Shown in pieces: positions 466 to 10,768 of a DNA stretch of 64,000 nt; the first letter of the stretch is position 1; the number at the start of each line of letters is the position of its first letter. The stretch covers positions 1-64,000 of the forward strand of contig JAJVIN010000040.1 of assembly GCA_022071945.1 (NCBI GenBank). Reading direction: 5' to 3'. The position numbers were made by a program, and so were the translations under genes. This DNA is from Thermoanaerobaculia bacterium. Lineage in GTDB: Bacteria > Acidobacteriota > Thermoanaerobaculia > UBA5066. A model generated the notes under the pieces. The model was not told the origin of the DNA and searched no databases. It worked only from the letters and a program-made list of their open reading frames with translations.

Positions 466-564
466 TGGCGGAGACGAATGGGAGTCGAACCCATCCGCCG
501 CCCCTCTCGGGACGAGCACACTGGTTTTGAAGACCAGGAAGGCCACCGGGCCTCGTGCGTCTCC
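466..564 (-). tRNA. selC: tRNA-Sec (anticodon UCA)
   Basis: Reading the minus strand gives a 99-nt tRNA with an encoded 3' CCA. Its acceptor stem begins GGAGACG and pairs with CGTCTCC. The D stem is long (AGGCC/GGCCT) with a 4-nt loop, the anticodon stem is CTGGT/ACCAG with loop CTTCAAA (anticodon TCA), the variable arm is a 6-bp stem capped by GAGA, and the T loop is TTCGACT. A UCA anticodon, extended D stem and long variable arm together distinguish it from tRNA-Ser and identify selenocysteine tRNA. It implies that this organism decodes some UGA codons as Sec through SelA/SelB, neither of which is in the window. Position 8 of the acceptor is a C-T mismatch. Confidence 0.95.
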
Positions 565-580
565 GCAAGGGATTTTACGG

Positions 581-1261
581 CTACTTCGGGGAACCGCCCT
601 CCCGCATGTCGTAGCGGTGCTTGATGACGCGGCCCTCGGCGATGTAGATCGTCTCCTCGCCGATGTTCGTCGCCAGGTCGCCCACTCGCTCGAGGTTCTT
701 CGACACCGACATGATGTCGATGCAGAAGGAAATGAGTGCGGGGTTCTCAGCCATGTAGGTCAGGAGTTCCCGGATGAGCGACTTGTTCTTTTCGTCGAGG
801 ATGTCGTCGTGCTCGCAGACCTGCCGCGCCAGGGCCGTGTCGCGCCTGACGAATGCATCGAGCGAGTCCTTCAGCATTCCCCGGGCGATCTCGGCCATGT
901 GCGGAATGTCGATCCACTTCTTGAAGGGTTTCGTCCGGGCCATCCGCTCGGCCGCCTCGGCGATGTTGACGGCGTGGTCCCCGATCCGCTCGAGATCGGC
1001 GTTGATCTTCAGCGCGCACACGAGAAGACGCAGATCACCAGCCACCGGCTGCTGCGTGGCCAGAAGGTGGATCGCCTCTTCCTCGTTCCGGATCTCCATC
1101 TCGTCGATCAACCTGTCCCGCTCGATGACGTCTCGCGCCTTGCCGATGTCCGCCGTGACGAGGGCCTCGATGGCCAGACGGATCTGGTTCTCCACCTCCG
1201 CTCCCATGCCGATCAGGGACCGGCGGAGGTGCTCGAGCATTTCCGCGAAGTGTTCTTTCAT
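581..1261 (-). CDS. phoU: Phosphate signalling protein PhoU
   Basis: This 226-residue all-helical protein has the two PhoU half-domains. The first ends in the metal-binding signature DLERIGDHAVNIAE and the second in NLERVGDLATNIGEE. PhoU links the Pst transporter to the PhoR kinase and keeps the regulon off when phosphate is plentiful. Length is typical for the family (about 220-240). It is the last gene of the pst-pho operon, and its start codon overlaps the phoR stop by 4 bases, so translational coupling is likely. Confidence 0.95.
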   Translation of the reverse strand: MKEHFAEMLEHLRRSLIGMGAEVENQIRLAIEALVTADIGKARDVIERDRLIDEMEIRNEEEAIHLLATQQPVAGDLRLLVCALKINADLERIGDHAVNIAEAAERMARTKPFKKWIDIPHMAEIARGMLKDSLDAFVRRDTALARQVCEHDDILDEKNKSLIRELLTYMAENPALISFCIDIMSVSKNLERVGDLATNIGEETIYIAEGRVIKHRYDMREGGSPK

Positions 1262-2787
1262 GCTTTCTCCTCGATTTTGGCGGCACCCAGAAAGGTCACG
1301 GGCAGGGACACCGTGAAGCGGCTGCCAGTGTTCGGCTCCGATTCGACCCGGATCGTCCCGCCATGCAGGATCAACAGGTGCTTGACGATTGCCAGTCCGA
1401 GCCCCGTTCCGGGAACGGACTTCGTACGGGACGGATCGACGCGGTAGAACCGCTGGAAGATCTTCTGTTGCTCTGATTTCGCGATGCCGATACCCCGGTC
1501 GATCACGTGGACCACTGCCCGTCCCCAGCTTCCGTCGGACCGAAGGGCGTCGCCCTCGATGAGGATGTCGACTCTGGCCCTCGGAGGCGAGAACTTGATG
1601 GCATTGTCGATGAGATTCCGGAAGACCTGCGCCATCCTCCGCCGGTCGGCTGCCACCGTCAGATCATCCGGGCCCTCCACCGCGGCCCTTATGCCGCGGG
1701 ACTCCGCCCCACCGGCGAGATCCTTGATCACCGTTTCGAGGAGCTGGCGGATCGGAACCTCCTCTACGTGCAGGGTGACGGCGCCGGTTTCGATCTGGGA
1801 GAGGTCCATCAAGTCCGACACCAGGTCGGCCATGTGCGCCGCTTGCCGCTCGACGATGCCGGCGAGGCGCAGTTCCTCGGGTGTCAGGTTCTCCCCGGGA
1901 AGCAGCGTGTCGATGGCCGCCCGGATCGACGCGATCGGCGTCCGGAGTTCGTGCGAGACATCACCCACGAAGCGCTTGCGCATGTCGTCCGTCCTCTCTC
2001 GGTCGGTCACATCGAGGACCACCCCGACGGCCGCGGGCTCTCCCGGCTTGCCTGAGTTGGGAACGGCCCGAACCGTCACCTCCACGGCCCGTTCGTCCCC
2101 CACCTCGCGGTCGATGCGGACGAGAGCCGAGTCGGGCTCCCACGGGGCCATCTGCTTGGCGATTCCACGTTCGAAAAGGCCCACGATGGCGGGTTGCCTC
2201 ACGAGGTCGACGAGGGCCCGCTTCGCGACGTCCGTCCGGGCGCCAAAGAGCCTCACGACGGTCGGGTTGGCGTCGAGGATGACGAGCTTCGGATCCACGA
2301 CGATGAGGCCCGCCGGAACCTCCTCGAAGACCGTGCGCGCCAGGACCCTCGCCGTCTCGCTGCCCTGGCGCTGCGACGCCACGAGGTCGGCGAGCCCGAT
2401 CAACGTTTCCTGGATCTCTCGAAGCTCGGGGGACCCCGCCGGGAGGTCCTCCGGGCGGCGTCCCGCGCCGGCATCCGTCACGCCGCGCCGGATCGAGGCC
2501 AGATCACGGGCGTGACGGGCCCTGAGGACGAGAACGATGGCCGCCACCACCGCCCCGAACACCAGCGCGATCTTCAGAAGCGCACGCCTGAGCGATTCCT
2601 CGACCCCATCGAGCGGCGGGGCACTCGACTCCGTGGCAACGGAGAGACCTTGCGGCTGCGTCGCCAGGCGCAGCCGCAAGCCCGAGACGGCCGAGCTGAG
2701 TGCGAGGTTGAGGAACAGGGCAGCTATGAGCCCGGCTGCGGCGCCCAGCAGCAGCCCGGCACTCGAACGGCGAAGCCAGGAAGTCAT
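1258..2787 (-). CDS. phoR: Phosphate regulon sensor histidine kinase PhoR
   Basis: The 509-residue membrane kinase has two transmembrane helices (about residues 9-33 and 71-89) with only a short periplasmic loop, as expected for a PhoR that senses through Pst/PhoU rather than a ligand. A PAS domain follows (about 145-260), then HisKA with the phospho-acceptor His in DVSHELRTP (about residue 279) and a HATPase_c domain with NLIDNAIKFSP and GTGLGLAIV. The start chosen is the ATG whose codon overlaps the phoB stop (ATGA); the frame stays open upstream inside phoB, but that extension is just overlap. It phosphorylates PhoB under phosphate limitation. Confidence 0.93.
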   Translation of the reverse strand: MTSWLRRSSAGLLLGAAAGLIAALFLNLALSSAVSGLRLRLATQPQGLSVATESSAPPLDGVEESLRRALLKIALVFGAVVAAIVLVLRARHARDLASIRRGVTDAGAGRRPEDLPAGSPELREIQETLIGLADLVASQRQGSETARVLARTVFEEVPAGLIVVDPKLVILDANPTVVRLFGARTDVAKRALVDLVRQPAIVGLFERGIAKQMAPWEPDSALVRIDREVGDERAVEVTVRAVPNSGKPGEPAAVGVVLDVTDRERTDDMRKRFVGDVSHELRTPIASIRAAIDTLLPGENLTPEELRLAGIVERQAAHMADLVSDLMDLSQIETGAVTLHVEEVPIRQLLETVIKDLAGGAESRGIRAAVEGPDDLTVAADRRRMAQVFRNLIDNAIKFSPPRARVDILIEGDALRSDGSWGRAVVHVIDRGIGIAKSEQQKIFQRFYRVDPSRTKSVPGTGLGLAIVKHLLILHGGTIRVESEPNTGSRFTVSLPVTFLGAAKIEEKA

Positions 2788-3497
2788 CTCGAGAAGCGGT
2801 AGCCTACCCCGACGACGGTCTCGATGATCTCGTCGCCGATCTTCTTCCTCAGGGACCGGATGTGAACGTCGACCGTGCGGGTCTCGACATCGGCCGCGTA
2901 GTCCCACAGTCGCGAGAGGATGGTCTCGCGGCTCACGACCCGTCCGGCGCTCCGGATCAAGAGCCAGAGGAGGTCGAACTCCTTTTTCGTCAGATGGACG
3001 GCCCGGCCCCCGGTCTCCACGAGGTGGCGGGACCGGTCCACTCTCAGCTGCCCGTCGTCGTAGACGTCGTCGGACCCTCCGTCGGGCCCGGTTCGTCTGA
3101 GGTGCGCCCCGATGCGGGCCACGAGCTCGCGCACCGAGAACGGCTTGGTGACGTAGTCGTCGGCCCCCAGCTCGAAGCCCAGGAGCTTGTCCCTCTCTTC
3201 CGCCCGCGCGGTGAGCATCACGATCGGGATCCTTCGCGTCGCCTCGTTCTTGCGAAGCTCGCGGCAGATCGTCAGGCCGTCGACGTCGGGCAGGTTGAGA
3301 TCGAGGATGACGAGATCCGGAGGACGCAGGGTGAGATCCTCGAGCGCCACGAGGCCCCCCGCGAACCTCTCCACCTCGTACCGCCCGTCCCGCTTGAGGT
3401 TGTAGACGAGAGTAAAGGCGAGGTCCTCGTCGTCCTCCACCAGGACGATTCGCTTCCGGCCTCGGCTGGCGGTCTCTTCTTCCTTCTGGCGGCCCAT
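2784..3497 (-). CDS. phoB: Phosphate regulon response regulator PhoB
   Basis: This is an OmpR/PhoB-family regulator of 237 residues. The receiver domain (about 16-130) has the acidic pocket EDDED, phospho-acceptor Asp66 in ILDLNLP and Lys118 in TKPFS. A winged-helix DNA-binding domain follows, ending in TVDVHIRSLRKKIGD and the GVGYRF wing. A clear GGAGG lies 8 nt before the ATG at 3497. An upstream ATG at 3527 that overlaps the pstB stop (ATGA) would add 10 residues. It is the likely binder of the 11-bp repeats in front of pstS. Confidence 0.93.
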   Translation of the reverse strand: MGRQKEEETASRGRKRIVLVEDDEDLAFTLVYNLKRDGRYEVERFAGGLVALEDLTLRPPDLVILDLNLPDVDGLTICRELRKNEATRRIPIVMLTARAEERDKLLGFELGADDYVTKPFSVRELVARIGAHLRRTGPDGGSDDVYDDGQLRVDRSRHLVETGGRAVHLTKKEFDLLWLLIRSAGRVVSRETILSRLWDYAADVETRTVDVHIRSLRKKIGDEIIETVVGVGYRFSR

Positions 3498-3523
3498 GGA
3501 CTTCGCCTCCTCGAACGCCGCTC

Positions 3524-4348
3524 TCATCCGAACCGCCCCGTGATGTAGTCCTCGGTCATCTTCTCCTTCGGACGGGTGAAGATCGTGTCGGTCTTGCCGA
3601 ACTCCACCAGCTTCCCCAGCATGAAGAAGCCCGTCTCGTCCGAGACGCGGGCGGCCTGCTGCATGTTGTGCGTGACGATGACGATGGTGAACTTCTCCTT
3701 GAGGCTGAAGATGAGCTCCTCGATCTTCGCCGTTGCGATCGGATCGAGGGCCGAACAGGGTTCGTCCATCAGGACCACTTCCGGTTGAACGGCAAGGGCG
3801 CGGGCGATGCAGAGCCTCTGCATCTGCCCTCCGGAAAGGCCGAGGGCGCTCTCGTCGAGACGGTCCTTCACTTCCTCCCAGAGGGCAGCGCCTTTGAGAG
3901 AGGTCTCGCACGCTTCCCGCAGAACCGCCCTGTTGTTGACGCCCTGAATGCGGAGCCCGTAGACGACGTTCTCGAAGATCGACTTCGGGAAGGGATTCGA
4001 CTTCTGAAACACCATCCCGAGCCGCTTCCGGATGTCGACGACATCGACTCCGGGAGCGTAGATGTCCTGTCCTTCGACCGTGATCGTCCCCGTCATCCGG
4101 ATCCCGTCGATCAAGTCGTTCATCCGGTTCAGGCACCGCAGAAGCGTGGACTTCCCGCATCCCGATGGCCCGATGAAGGCCGTGACGTGCCGTTCCTTGA
4201 TCCTCAGGTCGATGTCCGTGAGCGCCTGCTTCGACCCATAGAAGAAGTTGAAGTTCTCGATCTGGATGACGTGCCGGCCCTCTTGTGACGTTCCCTGGGG
4301 ACGCGGGGCGACGGAGGTCCTGACTGCTGGAGTCTCTGTGGCAGACAT
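3524..4348 (-). CDS. pstB: Phosphate ABC transporter ATPase PstB
   Basis: This ABC ATPase of about 274 residues powers phosphate import. It has Walker [10 protein letters not shown] (about 60-68), signature LSGGQMQRL, Walker B VLMDEP and the switch His in IVTHNM. The PstB-typical regions NRMNDLIDG and [13 protein letters not shown] make the family assignment specific. The N-terminus before the conserved IENFNFFYG is 30 residues long; a GTG at 4393 would add 15 more, and neither start has a convincing Shine-Dalgarno. It lies between pstA and phoB in the operon. Confidence 0.95.
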
Positions 4349-4403
4349 GATTCGAGCCGCTTCCTTCTCCTTGACGGGTGAAATGGTCCTCACGGAATTC
4401 CCT

Positions 4404-6023
4404 TCATAGCCCAGACGTCCGCAGCTTCTTGCTGAGGCGATTACGAACGATGATGGCTGTGAGGTTGAGGGCGACGACCACGACCAAGAGGAGGATCGTC
4501 GTCGTGTAGACCATGGGTTGCGCCGCCTCCACGTTCGGGGACTGGAAGCCGACGTCGTAGATGTGAAATCCGAGGTGCATGAACTTCCTCTCGAGATGAA
4601 AGAACGGGGGGAATTCGTCGATCGGCAGCGCCGGCGCGAGCTTCACGACCCCGGTGATCATCAATGGCGCGACCTCGCCCGCCGCACGAGCCATCGCCAG
4701 GATGAGACCCGTGAGAACCGATGGGAAAACCGCGGGCAGGACGACCCGCCACATCGTCTCGAACTTCGTCGCCCCGAGCGCAAGAGAGGCCTCGCGCGCT
4801 CCCCTCGGCACCGCCGCGAGGCCCTCCTCCGTGGCCACGATGACCACGGGGACGGTCAAAAGAGCGAGCGTGAGAGACGCCCAGAGAATCCCGCCCGTTC
4901 CGTAGGTCGGGCTGGGCAGCGCCTCGGGGAAGAACAGCCTGTCGATCGAGCCCCCGACGATGTACACGAAGAACCCCAGCCCGAAGACCCCGAAGACGAT
5001 CGACGGAACGCCGGCGAGGTTGTTCACCGCTATCCGGACCGCGCTGACGAAGGGACCCTGCCGGGCATACTCGCGCAGGTAGAAGGCCGCGAGAACGCCA
5101 AACGGTGTCACGACGAGGCTCATGATGAAGACCATCATCACCGTTCCGAAGATCGCCGGAAAGACACCGCCCTCGGTGTTGGACTCGCGCGGATCCTCCG
5201 AAACGAATTCCCACAGCCTCGACGAATAGAGTCCGAGCCGTCCGAAGAAGCTCAGCTCGTTCGGCCGATAGGCGCGAACGATGTTCGTCAGCGCGACCTG
5301 CTTTTCCTGACCATCGGCGGAGACGAAAACGACGTTCGTTCGCACGGTTCCCCGAAGCGCGGCCAGAGCCTCCATCTGCTTGTCGAAGAGCTTCTGGAGC
5401 CTCTCCTCCTCAGCCTTCAACGCGTCAAGCGCGGACCCTTTCGAGTGTCCCTTCAGCTCGAGAGACCGTCTCTTCAGACGGATCTTCTCCTTCTTGAAGT
5501 TGATTCCCCCGAGCTCGTCCTTCTCGATCCTCCGGGCCTGGTCATAGACTGAGAGGGCGGCCGGGAGCCTCTGGATGAGAAGAGCCCAGGAACGGTCGAC
5601 GCCCTCGGCGACGACGGTCTCGCCTTCCAGGACCTTCAGAGGGCGCCCGTGAAAGGCCCCCCACTCACGCCTCTCGATGACGGCGATCTCTTTCGGGTAG
5701 GCGCGCTCGCGGACATCCTTCTCGTCGACCCAGACGAAGTCCGAGCCGTACAGGTCGCGGTTCCCCTGCTTGAGCTTGAAGCGCCAGGAACCGGTGGTCT
5801 TCTTCCCGCTCTGCGGATCCGGGATCCTCTCGCGGGCCTCGATCGAGCCCGCGAGCTTGCGCCCATCTGCCAGCGAGATCTCGACCATGCTCCGGGGCCA
5901 GAAGAAGCCGAGCCCGCTGACGAGGACGAGCCCGAGAAGGCCGGCCACGAGCAGAAGAGCGAAGGCGAGAGCGGATCCGGTCACCCAGATGAAGGGATCC
6001 CCGCTCCGGATGAACCTATTCAT
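4404..6023 (-). CDS. pstA: Phosphate ABC permease PstA with enlarged N-terminal domain
   Basis: The C-terminal 250 residues (from about 287) are a standard PstA permease with the EAA-loop region [22 protein letters not shown]. The protein is 539 residues, against about 280-300 for E. coli PstA. The extra part lies between the first transmembrane helix (about 15-40) and the core. It is predicted to face the periplasm and includes a charged helical, coiled-coil-like stretch (about 170-230, lysine/glutamate/leucine rich). Pseudomonas-type PstA proteins are also long, so the form is known, but I know of no established function for the extra domain. Its start overlaps the pstC stop by 8 bases. Confidence 0.92.
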
Positions 6024-8286
6024 ACGTCCGGTACTTCTTTCGGAGCCTCAGCCGCACCAGCTCGGCGGCCGTGTTGACGACGAAGGTCATGGCGAAGAGA
6101 AGCAGCGCGGCCACGAACAGGACGCGAAACAGCGTCCCACCCTCTGGCGCCTCGGGGAGCTCCACGGCGACGTTCGCCGACATGGCGCGAAAGCCATTGA
6201 AGGGGGACCAGTCCATCACCGGCGTGTTGCCAGTTGCCATCAGGACGATCATCGTCTCCCCGACGGCCCGTCCGAAACCGATCATGATGGCCGAAAAGAT
6301 CCCCGGGCTCGCCGTCGGCAGGACGGTTCGGAGCGCCGTCTGCCACCGCGTGGCGCCGAGCGCGAGCGATCCCGCCGTCAGGTTCTTCGGGACGCTCGAG
6401 AGCGAGTCCTCCGCCACGGTGAAGATGATGGGGATGACGGCAAACCCCATGGCCAGACCCACCACGACCGAGTTCCGCTGATCGTAGGTGAGGCCCAGCA
6501 CCTTCAGGAAAAAGGCCCGGTAATCCCCGTGAAGGAGCGAGTGCTCGATCTGATGACCGATCTGAAGACCCACCCAGAGGGCGAGAAGGACGACAGGGAG
6601 CAGAAACAGGATCTCGTATCCCGCCGGAACAGCCCTTTTCAGTGCCGTGGGCACCCGTTCCCACACGGCCGAGGCCGCAAACGCGAAGACCGGGACGACG
6701 ATGATGGTGGCCAGGATTCCTGGCACGACTCTCTCGACCGCCGGAGCCAGCCAGAGTCCGGCCACGAACCCCAGAACGACGCTGGGCAGGGCCGCCATGA
6801 TCTCGACGCCCGGCTTGATGATCGACTTGAGATTCGGGTGGAGAAACTGAGACGTGTAGAGCGCGCCGAAAAGAGCGAGGGGGATCGCCACGATCAGGGC
6901 ATAGAACGTCCCCTTCAGGGTCCCGAATATCAGGGGTGTCAGGCTGAACTTGGCCTCGAAGTCGTCCGTGCCGCCGGTCGACTGCCACACGTACCCCGGC
7001 TCGTTGTAGCCCTCGTACCAGACCTTGCCGAAGAGGGTCCGGAGCGTGATCTCGGGGTGCGGGTTCTGAAGAGACCAGTGGAGGATCTTCCCATCGGCTC
7101 TCGCCGCCAGGACGCCATCCGCCTTTGGAGCGAACGAGGTACCTGTTAGCCGCGCCCCTTCCGCGCGAAGTGAGAGAAGGGTCTTGCCCGTCGTCCCGTA
7201 ATGGACCTTGACCTCCCCGCCGTCGTCGATCGTCACGAAGCCCTTGTCGCGCCTGGAGGGAGAGATGCCCACCACACGCCCCTTGTGAGCTTCGAACTGG
7301 TTCATCGGGGTCAGGGTTCTCGGCCTCCCATCGGGCTGGAGCATCTGCAAGGAAACGACGCCTCCGGCCGCATCTCCAGCGATGAGAGTCCGGTCCCCGT
7401 TGAGAAAACCGAGGGCCGTGACCGCGGTCGTTCGGGAACGCGCCACGAAAACGGATTCCTTCTGGCCCCGGTCCTCACCCGCCCTGCGATCGAAGCGAAT
7501 GACCTCGCCCGTGGAGGTCCCGAGGAACAGGTCGTCGCCCCGTGCATCCATCGCGAGGGCCGTGATCTCTCCGGCCGCCTGGAGCTGGATCAGCTCCCTC
7601 TTCTCCTCCCGGGTCGACTCCCCCATCAGGTTCGCTGTCTCGGTGGCCTCGAGGATGGCCACATCCCGGGGTCCGACTCGCGCGGACACCTTGGTGGATC
7701 CATCGCGAACCAGGTACTTGGCGAGCTCGGTGGGCCGGCCCCCCTCGTCTACGACGAGAGGCTTACCGGGCGTCACCACTGTCCGGATCTGCCTCTTCGA
7801 ACCCTCGAACGAGGTTTCGAAGGCGACATCGACGGGCAGAAGCCGCCCATCCGACAATCCGGCCGCCAGCCCTCCGGAGGCCGTTACGAACCCCTGGACG
7901 ATCTTCGCCTCGCCGATACCGGGGGTGTCGATCCGCGTGGGCCCCGGACCCGATTCCACGAGAGAGAACTGAACGAAGCCCGAGGGAAGGCAAGCAACTC
8001 CGTTTTCCCGGTACTCGTCGGTGACGAAAGCCAAAACAGGCTCCGAGAAGCCGAGATCGACCGCCTGATGCGGCGTTGCCTTCGGGGGAAGAAGGAGTGG
8101 GAGCGCAACCGAGAAGAGGACGAACAAGATGGCGGCTATGGCCAGGATGACGAGGACGCCCGAGCCGTAGACCAGCCGCCTGGCGATCCGGTCCGCGAGG
8201 AATCGCCGAGCCTTCTTCCTGGCCGCGACCCCGGGGCGGGCCGGAACATCCAGCCCGCCATCCGAGGTTGTCGAGATCGGCGCCAA
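6016..8286 (-). CDS. pstC: Phosphate ABC permease PstC with beta-propeller-like insert
   Basis: The last 309 residues (from about 448) form the normal PstC permease core, including VAEDSLSSVPKNLTAGSLALGATRWQT and the GRAVGETMIVLMATG segment. The whole protein is 756 residues, more than twice E. coli PstC. After the first membrane helix (about 40-68), a region of roughly 375 residues is inserted. Repeats of WD40-like style are visible in it (AMDARGDDLFLGTSTGEV, LIAGDAAGGVVSL, FVTIDDGGEVKVHYG), so a periplasmic beta-propeller is likely. Long PstC proteins occur in gammaproteobacteria. The insert could touch PstS or relay phosphate status, but that is inference. Confidence 0.92.
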   Translation of the reverse strand: MAPISTTSDGGLDVPARPGVAARKKARRFLADRIARRLVYGSGVLVILAIAAILFVLFSVALPLLLPPKATPHQAVDLGFSEPVLAFVTDEYRENGVACLPSGFVQFSLVESGPGPTRIDTPGIGEAKIVQGFVTASGGLAAGLSDGRLLPVDVAFETSFEGSKRQIRTVVTPGKPLVVDEGGRPTELAKYLVRDGSTKVSARVGPRDVAILEATETANLMGESTREEKRELIQLQAAGEITALAMDARGDDLFLGTSTGEVIRFDRRAGEDRGQKESVFVARSRTTAVTALGFLNGDRTLIAGDAAGGVVSLQMLQPDGRPRTLTPMNQFEAHKGRVVGISPSRRDKGFVTIDDGGEVKVHYGTTGKTLLSLRAEGARLTGTSFAPKADGVLAARADGKILHWSLQNPHPEITLRTLFGKVWYEGYNEPGYVWQSTGGTDDFEAKFSLTPLIFGTLKGTFYALIVAIPLALFGALYTSQFLHPNLKSIIKPGVEIMAALPSVVLGFVAGLWLAPAVERVVPGILATIIVVPVFAFAASAVWERVPTALKRAVPAGYEILFLLPVVLLALWVGLQIGHQIEHSLLHGDYRAFFLKVLGLTYDQRNSVVVGLAMGFAVIPIIFTVAEDSLSSVPKNLTAGSLALGATRWQTALRTVLPTASPGIFSAIMIGFGRAVGETMIVLMATGNTPVMDWSPFNGFRAMSANVAVELPEAPEGGTLFRVLFVAALLLFAMTFVVNTAAELVRLRLRKKYRTYE

Positions 8287-8287
8287 C

Positions 8288-9256
8288 TTACTGGACCTTG
8301 GCCAGCTCTTCCTTCGCCAGAGCCGCGGTCAGCGGGTAGTAGCCGTCCTTGATGACGACCTCCTGGCCCTCCCTGGCGACGACCATCTTCAGGAACTCGC
8401 GCACGAGGGGGTCGAGCGGCTTGTTCGGGGCCTTGTTCACGAAGACATAGAGGAAGCGGGCCAGGGGGTACTTCCCTGAGTAGGCCTCTTCCGCGGTGGC
8501 CTCGTGGCAGGTGTCGCCGGGCTTTCCAGACAGAGGAATCGCCCGCACGCCCGGTGTGGTGTAGCCGATGCCGCTGTAGCCGATCGCATAGCGGTCGACG
8601 GTGACACCCTGAACGACGGAGGCCGATCCGGGCTGCTCCTTCACCGAGTCCTTGTAGTCCCCGTTGCCGAGAGCGTGTTCCTTGAAGAAGCCGTAGGTGC
8701 CGGAAGCCGAGTTACGGCCGAACAGACTGACCGGCCGCTGGGCCCAGTCCCCGGTGAGGCCGAGCTGTCCCCATGTCTTGATGTCCTCCTTGGCGCCCGA
8801 GCGGCGCGTCTTGGAGAAGATGGCGTCGACCTGCTGCAGCGAGAGGCACTTCACGGGGTTGTCCTTGTTGACGAAGACGCCGAGGGCATCCACGGCGACG
8901 CGGATCTTCGTCGGCTTGTAGCCGAACTTCTTCTCGAACTGATCGATCTCCGAGCCCTTCATGTCGCGAGACATGGGACCGAGCTGAGCCGTGCCGGCGA
9001 TCAGGGCCGGAGGGGCTGTCGAGGAGCCCTTCCCCTCGATCTGGATCTTGACGTTCGGGTAGAGCTTGTTGAATTTCTCCGCCCAGAGGGTCATCAGGTT
9101 GTTGAGGCTGTCCGAGCCGATCGAATTCAGGTTGCCCGAGACCCCGGGGGCCGTCTGGTAGGCCGGGATCGCGGGATCGACCTTGGCGACCTGCGCCTGG
9201 ATGGTGGTTGTGACGGCCGCGAGGGCGAGGGCGACGAGCGTCTTTTGGTGCTTCAA
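8288..9256 (-). CDS. pstS: Phosphate-binding protein PstS
   Basis: This 322-residue periplasmic binding protein belongs to the PstS family: TYGFFKEHALG, the phosphate-loop region GIGYTTPGVRAIPLS and a C-terminal LVREFLKMVVAREGQ are recognisable. The start is a TTG codon: AAGGAGG sits 6 nt upstream and the first 22 residues form a clean signal peptide (MKHQKTLVALALAAV..., cleavage near IQAQ). The open frame continues upstream but has no ribosome site there. It captures phosphate for PstCAB, is first in the operon and lies 58 bases downstream of the Pho-box array. Confidence 0.93.
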   Translation of the reverse strand: MKHQKTLVALALAAVTTTIQAQVAKVDPAIPAYQTAPGVSGNLNSIGSDSLNNLMTLWAEKFNKLYPNVKIQIEGKGSSTAPPALIAGTAQLGPMSRDMKGSEIDQFEKKFGYKPTKIRVAVDALGVFVNKDNPVKCLSLQQVDAIFSKTRRSGAKEDIKTWGQLGLTGDWAQRPVSLFGRNSASGTYGFFKEHALGNGDYKDSVKEQPGSASVVQGVTVDRYAIGYSGIGYTTPGVRAIPLSGKPGDTCHEATAEEAYSGKYPLARFLYVFVNKAPNKPLDPLVREFLKMVVAREGQEVVIKDGYYPLTAALAKEELAKVQ

Positions 9257-9313
9257 GAGATTCCTCCTTGACCCATTCACGGCGCCGAGTGTCGGCGGGA
9301 GTCCCGGGAACCC

Positions 9314-9346
9314 TGTTACGTCCGTGTTAAGTCCGTGTGAAGTGAC
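9314..9346 (-). promoter_or_regulatory. Pho-box-like PhoB site upstream of pstS
   Basis: Three tandem 11-bp units lie here. On the minus strand they read CTTCACA-cgga-CTTAACA-cgga-CGTAACA, a 7-bp repeat separated by 4-bp spacers. That 7+4 geometry is the classic PhoB/PhoP recognition layout, and the half-site resembles the TTAACA-type element known from other phyla more than the E. coli CTGTCAT. It lies 58 bases before the pstS start, oriented toward the pst operon. Confidence 0.75.
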
Positions 9347-9360
9347 GCGCTGAGAGGCTG

Positions 9361-9389
9361 ATTTACAGGGGCTTAACCCGCTCTTTGAG
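9361..9389 (+). promoter_or_regulatory. Second, degenerate Pho-box facing the porin gene
   Basis: On the plus strand ATTTACA-gggg-CTTAACC-cgct-CTTTGAG repeats the same 11-bp spacing with weaker half-sites. It lies about 70-95 bases upstream of the phosphate-type porin, so both divergent units may be switched on together by PhoB. Confidence 0.5.
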
Positions 9390-9457
9390 CGGTCTTGGGC
9401 CCCGCCCCGCGACACTCCCGCCCATCCGGTCACCACGAAAAAGGAGAAACCTCGAGA

Positions 9458-10768
9458 ATGATTCCCCAGACCCTTCAGAGAGCGTTCGGAAGCCTCGCCA
9501 TCCTTCTTCTCCTCACCGCCAGCGCCGCCAGCGGGCAGGTGAACACCCTCTGGTACAAGGAAGTCACCCACGACGGGAGGATCTACGTCTTCAACACGCC
9601 CACCAAGTTCGACCTGTGGGAGAAGTCGCGGGACATGGGCGCGTCGTTGACGCGGATCGGACACGGGCCGAACGGCGAGACCGTCGTCTTCGAGAACGAG
9701 AACGCGCTCGATCTCTACAACTTGAAACACAACAAGGAATCGGAAGTCCGGCCTTACAAGGCTCCCGAGGCTCCCAAACCTGTCCTGCCGGCCAGCTTGA
9801 AGGTCGCCGACGGGGAGCTGAAGTTCGGGCTTCTCTTGCAGGCCTGGTACTTCGGCGACGACTCCAAACAGGCGTCGGGCTCCTCGTACCTCGGCAACCC
9901 GACGGGCGTGAACACCTTCCGGCTTCGCCGCGCGGAGATCAAGCTCTCCGGCAAGGTCACCCCGGCCTGGGGCTTCGAAGTCATGGTCGACCCCGCAAAG
10001 ACCCAGAACTTCTCAGCCGGAAGCGACGACAAGATCCTGCAGGACCTGGGGATCTCCTACCTTGGTTTGAAGGGACACGAGTTCACGCTCGGCCAGAAGA
10101 AGATCGCCATCACCGAGGAAGGTCTTCGCTCGTCGTCCGAGATCGATTTCGCGGAGCGTTCCCGGATCACCCGCGTCATCGGCGACCAGCGCCAGATGGG
10201 GTTCTTCTACAAGGGTGAATACGGCGCGAAGTTCGCCGCCCAGGCCTCGATCACATCGGGCCTGCCGTCCAACGTCGCCGGAACCTCCGATCGCCTCTTC
10301 TACGCGGCTCGCCTCGATTTCAAGGCCATCAAGGGGTTCGTGGCCGGCGTATCGGGCGGAACCGGAAACCAGGGCACCCAGGCCTTGACGCGCAACCGCC
10401 TCGGCGCTCACGTCCGCTGGGACGGAACGGACGAGCTCCCTCTCATGTTCCGCGGCGAGTACGGCGCGGCGACGGACGGACAGACGAATGGGACGGAGAT
10501 CGACCGCGACGGCTTCTATCTCTCCGCCCTCTACACGTTCGCCGAGCAGTTCCGGGTCGGCCTTCGCTACGAGGAGTACGACCCGAACAAGGACGTCGAC
10601 GGGGACAGCCTCTCGATCCTCACGGGCGGCTTCCACTACATGATCAAGGGTCGGAATATCAACATCAAGGCCGAGTGGTACGGCGTCGAACAGGAAGGCC
10701 GCAAGATCAACAACGTCCTCGACGAGAGATACAACCAGTTCGTGATCGCGGCGCAAGTCGCGTTCTGA
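9458..10768 (+). CDS. Phosphate/polyphosphate-selective porin (OprO/OprP family)
   Basis: The 436-residue outer-membrane protein starts with a signal peptide (MIPQTLQRAFGSLAILLLL..., cleavage after ASG). After a periplasmic N-terminal portion comes a beta-barrel whose strands match the Porin_O_P family: LKFGLLLQAWYFGD, FRLRRAEIKLSGKVTPAWGF, QKKIAITEEGLRSSSEIDFAERS. AAGGAG precedes the ATG; the open frame upstream lacks a ribosome site. Its position opposite pstS and the Pho-box-like repeats between them support a role in phosphate or polyphosphate uptake across the outer membrane. The substrate itself cannot be read from sequence. Confidence 0.85.
   Translation: MIPQTLQRAFGSLAILLLLTASAASGQVNTLWYKEVTHDGRIYVFNTPTKFDLWEKSRDMGASLTRIGHGPNGETVVFENENALDLYNLKHNKESEVRPYKAPEAPKPVLPASLKVADGELKFGLLLQAWYFGDDSKQASGSSYLGNPTGVNTFRLRRAEIKLSGKVTPAWGFEVMVDPAKTQNFSAGSDDKILQDLGISYLGLKGHEFTLGQKKIAITEEGLRSSSEIDFAERSRITRVIGDQRQMGFFYKGEYGAKFAAQASITSGLPSNVAGTSDRLFYAARLDFKAIKGFVAGVSGGTGNQGTQALTRNRLGAHVRWDGTDELPLMFRGEYGAATDGQTNGTEIDRDGFYLSALYTFAEQFRVGLRYEEYDPNKDVDGDSLSILTGGFHYMIKGRNINIKAEWYGVEQEGRKINNVLDERYNQFVIAAQVAF

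Follow-up and report, generated by a model that had tools for sequence, protein, structure and literature searches.

The window, by which we mean the whole 64-kb stretch of DNA analysed here, carries a phosphate transport operon on its minus strand. The operon is headed by pstS (8288-9256; PBP_like_2), for which a TTG start was inferred from the preceding AAGGAGG. Behind it follow pstC (6016-8286; BPD_transp_1 with a propeller-like insert), pstA (4404-6023; BPD_transp_1), pstB (3524-4393; ABC_tran) and, in last position, phoB (2784-3527; Response_reg and Trans_reg_C) and a phoR-like histidine kinase gene (1258-2907; PAS, HisKA and HATPase_c), all on the minus strand. The open frame of the kinase gene overlaps phoB, and the true start of phoR probably lies further inside this frame. 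We regard the phoB product as a PhoB orthologue because it has a receiver and a winged-helix domain and is encoded together with phoR and the pst genes; its recognition helix, RTVDVHIRSLRK, has Ser at the position of residue 201 of Escherichia coli PhoB. No phoU gene was found in the pst-phoBR operon (1258-9256), and the PhoU-domain gene that we did find sits in a second cluster. On the plus strand, a gene for a phosphate-selective porin (9458-10768; Porin_O_P; ATG start inferred) diverges from pstS, and the profile matches thus agree with the two neighbours named in the preliminary description. PstC is long (a 756-aa frame), and its middle part, ahead of the permease domain, weakly matches WD40/beta-propeller profiles. 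A selenocysteine tRNA (anticodon tca) is predicted shortly downstream of the end of phoR (466-564, minus strand).

Two repeat arrays lie between pstS and the porin gene. The array facing pstS (9342-9314, minus strand) reads CTTCACA-cgga-CTTAACA-cgga-CGTAACA; that is, three direct 7-bp units with identical 4-bp spacers at an exact 11-bp step, which is the layout of a Pho box. The weaker array facing the porin gene (9361-9389, plus strand) reads ATTTACA-gggg-CTTAACC-cgct-CTTTGAG. On direct reading, the coordinates and the wording under which both sets had first been reported proved exact. Units 1 and 2 of the pstS-facing array have T at position 2, and G is found there only in unit 3, so that the array departs from the E. 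coli-type TGTCA core, whose second base is G. When CTTMACA was searched as a triple with up to five mismatches, the pstS-facing array was the sole match within the window. It has one mismatch to this consensus, and the closest among 3000 first-order Markov shuffles of the intergenic DNA has six, a comparison that is circular because the consensus was derived from the tested site. A consensus-free score of 11-bp periodicity gave 17, which was matched by 7 of 3000 Markov shuffles. Among 213 blocks of 300 bp, five equalled or exceeded the two-unit score of the porin-facing array (10/12); one of these five holds the porin-facing site itself or the pstS box. Taken alone, the porin-facing set is weak and not significant; it is credible because relatives have boxes at the same place.

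We searched 13 relatives from the same family, of which nine have a close PstS and eight of these have enough upstream sequence. In the window and in all eight usable relatives, a box faces pstS and a second box can be read facing the opposite way. In at least six of the eight, the divergent gene shares the LWYKEV motif that the window porin has at its N-terminal end, and the boxes are conserved between genera despite diverged flanks. We consider this conservation, as judged from the compared sequences, to be stronger evidence against chance than the periodicity score.

The position of the boxes relative to a putative promoter is also conserved. In the window, GACACT at 9288-9293 (minus strand), 20 nt past half-site 3 and 9 nt past an empty slot 4, may be the -10 element of pstS, and GACACT at 9411-9416 (plus strand), 21 nt past half-site 3 in a register partly set by eye, may be that of the porin gene. 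This hexamer is a poor fit to TATAAT, and its reading as a -10 is putative. Hexamers of the form [GA]A[CGT][AC]CT (GACACT, GATCCT, AAGACT, GAGACT and AACACT) occur 20 nt past half-site 3 on the pstS side of all nine family sequences. On the porin side, where the register was fixed by eye for four of the nine, a similar hexamer recurs (GAGACT, GAGAGT, CAGCCT), one base further off in the window, and three relatives have a readable fourth unit 9 nt before it. For comparison, we fetched the pstS promoter of E. coli K-12, in which TGTCATA, TGTCATA, TTACATA and TGTCACC follow one another at 11 bp and are followed, after 9 nt, by TATTTT. The window array therefore occupies slots 1-3 of the E. coli layout, with a degenerate slot 4 and the putative -10 at the same place. 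In many other boxes, although not in all rows, hexamers resembling TAnnnT (for instance the vicinamibacterial TAGCGT and the alphaproteobacterial TAGCTT) lie at this offset or within one or two bases of it.

We then considered how far the consensus reaches beyond this locus. In the 6.17-Mb genome to which the window belongs, an exact two-unit pattern (TTMACA-N5-TTMACA) matched only two sites, each preceding a pst operon: the window site and C1:384457. The latter has two good units, agrees only imperfectly with the 9-nt spacing, and lies 146 bp before the PhoU-domain gene, after which come pstS, pstC, pstA and two ABC ATPase genes. The PhoU-domain gene itself (L127 9194-10312, G000:C1, minus strand) joins PhoU domains and an LMWPc domain (low-molecular-weight phosphatase, arsC-like) in one 372-aa frame. 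With up to one mismatch, there were eight rows against four with the reversed control pattern, and three of the eight (two sites) are at phosphate genes; with a three-unit pattern and up to three mismatches, the window site and two others matched, against none in the control. The same genome contains PPK1 and PhoD-like genes, neither of which has a box that exceeds background, and a search of it for PhoA-family genes found none. A covariance model built from 18 family boxes with their -10 elements was also tried and dropped as a regulon scanner, being GC-heavy and built from the same sites. In this genome it recovered both arrays of the window (at E 8.1e-10 and 4.3e-6), all further matches having E > 0.7; in ten relatives it gave 16 strong matches, two per genome in eight, all in the pstS/porin region, and the rest were weak.

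Across 60 genomes, including that of the window, the exact two-unit pattern gave 20 matches in 17 genomes, against two with the reversed pattern. Nine of the 20 are clearly at phosphate genes: six have pstS downstream (L010, L180, L183, L185, L186 and L187), and single matches precede phoU-pst (L009), a gene for a PhoB-like response regulator (L177) and an alkaline phosphatase gene (PF00245; L182). Two more are probably related, bringing the number to between 9 and 11; one precedes a signal-peptide-like gene without a Pfam hit beside a second pstS (L181), and the other an OMP_b-brl_4 gene that lies roughly 5 kb away from pstS (L184). The remaining nine are not at recognisable phosphate genes, and lie at prs, a HicB/LexA-like pair, chlorite dismutase, a Fer2 oxidoreductase, ribonucleotide reductase, pyruvate kinase and three nameless genes. 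Boxes thus recur before pstS in the window, before phoU-pst in the same genome, and before pstS, phoB and phoA in relatives. The enrichment before phosphate genes that had been expected is therefore present, and transport (pstS, phoU-pst), phoB and phosphatase (phoA) genes are among the targets, although no box was found at the polyphosphate gene PPK1 of the window's own genome. The proposal that the consensus would find the whole phosphate regulon fares less well: its exact matches are precise, both of those in the genome being at pst operons, but it misses the window's own porin box, no box was found by PPK1 or the PhoD-like gene, and as a regulon finder it is weakly supported. A CTTMACA-type consensus is informative and precise but too narrow to define the regulon. 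A chance origin of the three 7-mers, as a repeat in GC-rich intergenic DNA, is hardly credible, despite the few shuffles that equalled the periodicity score, given that nine genomes conserve the boxes at fixed spacing, that conservation extends between genera with diverged flanks, and that boxes recur before phosphate genes.

The pair is of a kind already known, namely PhoB-type Pho boxes. Like the E. coli pstS Pho box, the pstS-facing array consists of head-to-tail 7+4 units before pstS, a 9-nt gap separates slot 4 from the putative -10, and phoBR is present. It differs in its half-site, which lacks the G at position 2 of TGTCATA, in its spacers, which are AT-rich in E. coli, in its hexamer (GACACT against TATTTT), and in having three good units, whereas E. 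coli has four. The fetched E. coli promoter thus confirms the earlier observation of a PhoB-site layout with a half-site unlike TGTCATA. The label of a phylum-specific consensus has to be given up, since the half-sites vary within the class and among classes, and related ones have been published for cyanobacteria and Streptomyces. The boxes upstream of pstS read TGTCACA in family f13 of the same class, CTTCACA in families f10 and f5, GTTAACA/ATTAACA in Vicinamibacteria, CGTAACA in Rokubacteria and TGTCACA/CGTCACA in alphaproteobacteria, with TGTCACA in f18 and AGTTACA/TGTCACA in f35 as further variants. Near second pstS genes in another family of the class, there are 11-bp arrays of the CTTTACA/GTTTACG type (L271 3087, L274 3822 and L275 5475). 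The PhoP box of Bacillus subtilis has a TTAACA core at 11-bp steps. The Streptomyces coelicolor PhoP box, given as GTTCACC-N4-GTTCACC in the accessible portions of PMC4415409 and PMC4832192, shares the TTCAC core and the 7+4 step and, in this comparison of boxes, has a unit that begins and ends with other bases. The cyanobacterial SphR Pho box, CTTAACCT, is described in the available part of PMC1906773 as 8-bp repeats with a 3-bp linker ending in CT; at the level of boxes, it has in common with the window at least three tandem repeats and a TTAAC core. The same part of that report states that the contact residues of SphR are conserved with E. coli PhoB. A literature search over titles and the starts of abstracts, with most subscription journals outside its scope, found nothing on an OmpR/PhoB recognition code or on phosphate regulation or Pho boxes in Acidobacteriota.

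We conclude that the intergenic region very probably holds a divergent pair of PhoB-activated promoters, a reading in which binding, activation and control by phosphate are all deduced from sequence comparison. Under phosphate limitation, PhoR would phosphorylate PhoB, whose subunits would occupy the three 11-bp units at 9342-9314 in head-to-tail order and bring RNA polymerase to the weak -10 at 9293-9288. The pstS promoter would drive pstSCAB-phoB-phoR in a positive loop, and the weaker array on the opposite strand would act likewise for the porin gene. Less certainly, the half-site may have T in place of the E. coli G because Ser replaces the guanine-contacting Arg201. The repeats might instead be operators of another OmpR-family regulator of the same genome, with PhoB acting elsewhere; the genome has eight Trans_reg_C domain matches, and 11-bp direct repeats are favoured by all OmpR-family regulators. 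We consider this improbable in view of an array that heads the very operon encoding PhoB, of matching sites elsewhere before pstS, phoU, phoB and phoA, and of a half-site type that tracks a residue of the PhoB adjoining pstS.

What might account for the change of half-site? By alignment, the helix of the window PhoB differs from that of E. coli (RTVDVHIRRLRK) only in the replacement of Arg201 by Ser. In the PhoB-DNA crystal structure, according to the accessible text of PMC3973317, Arg201 hydrogen-bonds specifically to guanine. The window PhoB, with Ser, lacks this guanine-contacting residue, and the only G of TGTCATA, at position 2, is T in window units 1 and 2. We compared residue and base among 142 upstream regions, obtained from 158 stretches after 12 without a pstS match and four with too little upstream sequence were set aside. 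At a box score of at least 12 out of 15, a threshold fixed after an initial table had been inspected, there were 78 boxes among the 142 real upstreams and 226 among 4260 shuffled draws. Requiring this score and a nearby phoB, and removing duplicates, left 40 non-redundant operons: 20 have a G-type box, all with Arg201; 14 lack Arg201, none with a G-type box; and six have Arg201 without G. In a first held-out set (34 stretches), only five rows were usable, all with Arg201 and none without it, two being G-type and three not. The second set comprised 30 genomes selected on boxes that had been read earlier, of which some score no more than 11; the prediction was written beforehand. Arg201 was present in 13 of 15 G-type genomes and absent in 11 of the 14 T/C-type genomes with a match (Fisher p 0.0007); G110 had no match, and the two G-type misses, G361 (best match KdpE-like) and G360 (a doubtful orthologue), were counted as such. 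Within the window's class, this set had Arg in three of three G-type genomes (f13) and in none of seven T-type genomes.

A residue-201/operator-base code, read from these sequences, is plausible, not proved. The half-site differences from E. coli might also reflect base composition or drift alone, unrelated to residue 201, and we take this to be a serious possibility, somewhat below even. On a PhoB tree that left out G361 and the second match of G368, Arg201 changes only about three times, so that the residue-base rows are not independent and a sign test has no power. Vicinamibacteria-type PhoBs (helix RSIDAHIRRLR; L087, L108, L233, L293 and L295) keep Arg201 beside pstS boxes of the TTAACA type; of the rows with Arg201, 6 of 26 in the 40-operon set and 3 of 16 in the second set have no G. 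Conversely, 2 of 15 G-type rows of the second set have G but not Arg201, and unit 3 of the window array, CGTAACA, has G although the window PhoB has Ser. E. coli PhoB itself also occupies sites whose half-sites are of the T type (TTTCATA and CTTCACA, for example), as listed in the available part of PMC10294691. Since such sites and such Arg201 rows exist, G would be favoured rather than obligatory. Against drift alone stand the complete lack of G-type boxes among the 14 operons without Arg201, the agreement of both proportions in the pre-stated test, and the fact that residue 201 is the reported guanine contact. We tentatively propose, with a nearly even chance of being right, that in one branch of the Acidobacteriota the operator specificity of PhoB changed through loss of Arg201 (to Ser, Thr or Ala), and that in the pst operators TGTCAYA gave way to CTTMACA while the promoter geometry remained constant.

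For a phylum that is poorly represented in culture, the locus supplies a well-founded layout of PhoB operator and promoter. Should the link between residue and base hold, the regulator and its operator changed in concert at a single contact reported from a crystal structure. The Vicinamibacteria, which combine Arg201 with TTAACA-type boxes, would then represent an intermediate stage, G having gone from the operators before Arg went from the regulator, and part of the OmpR/PhoB recognition code could be read from genomes.
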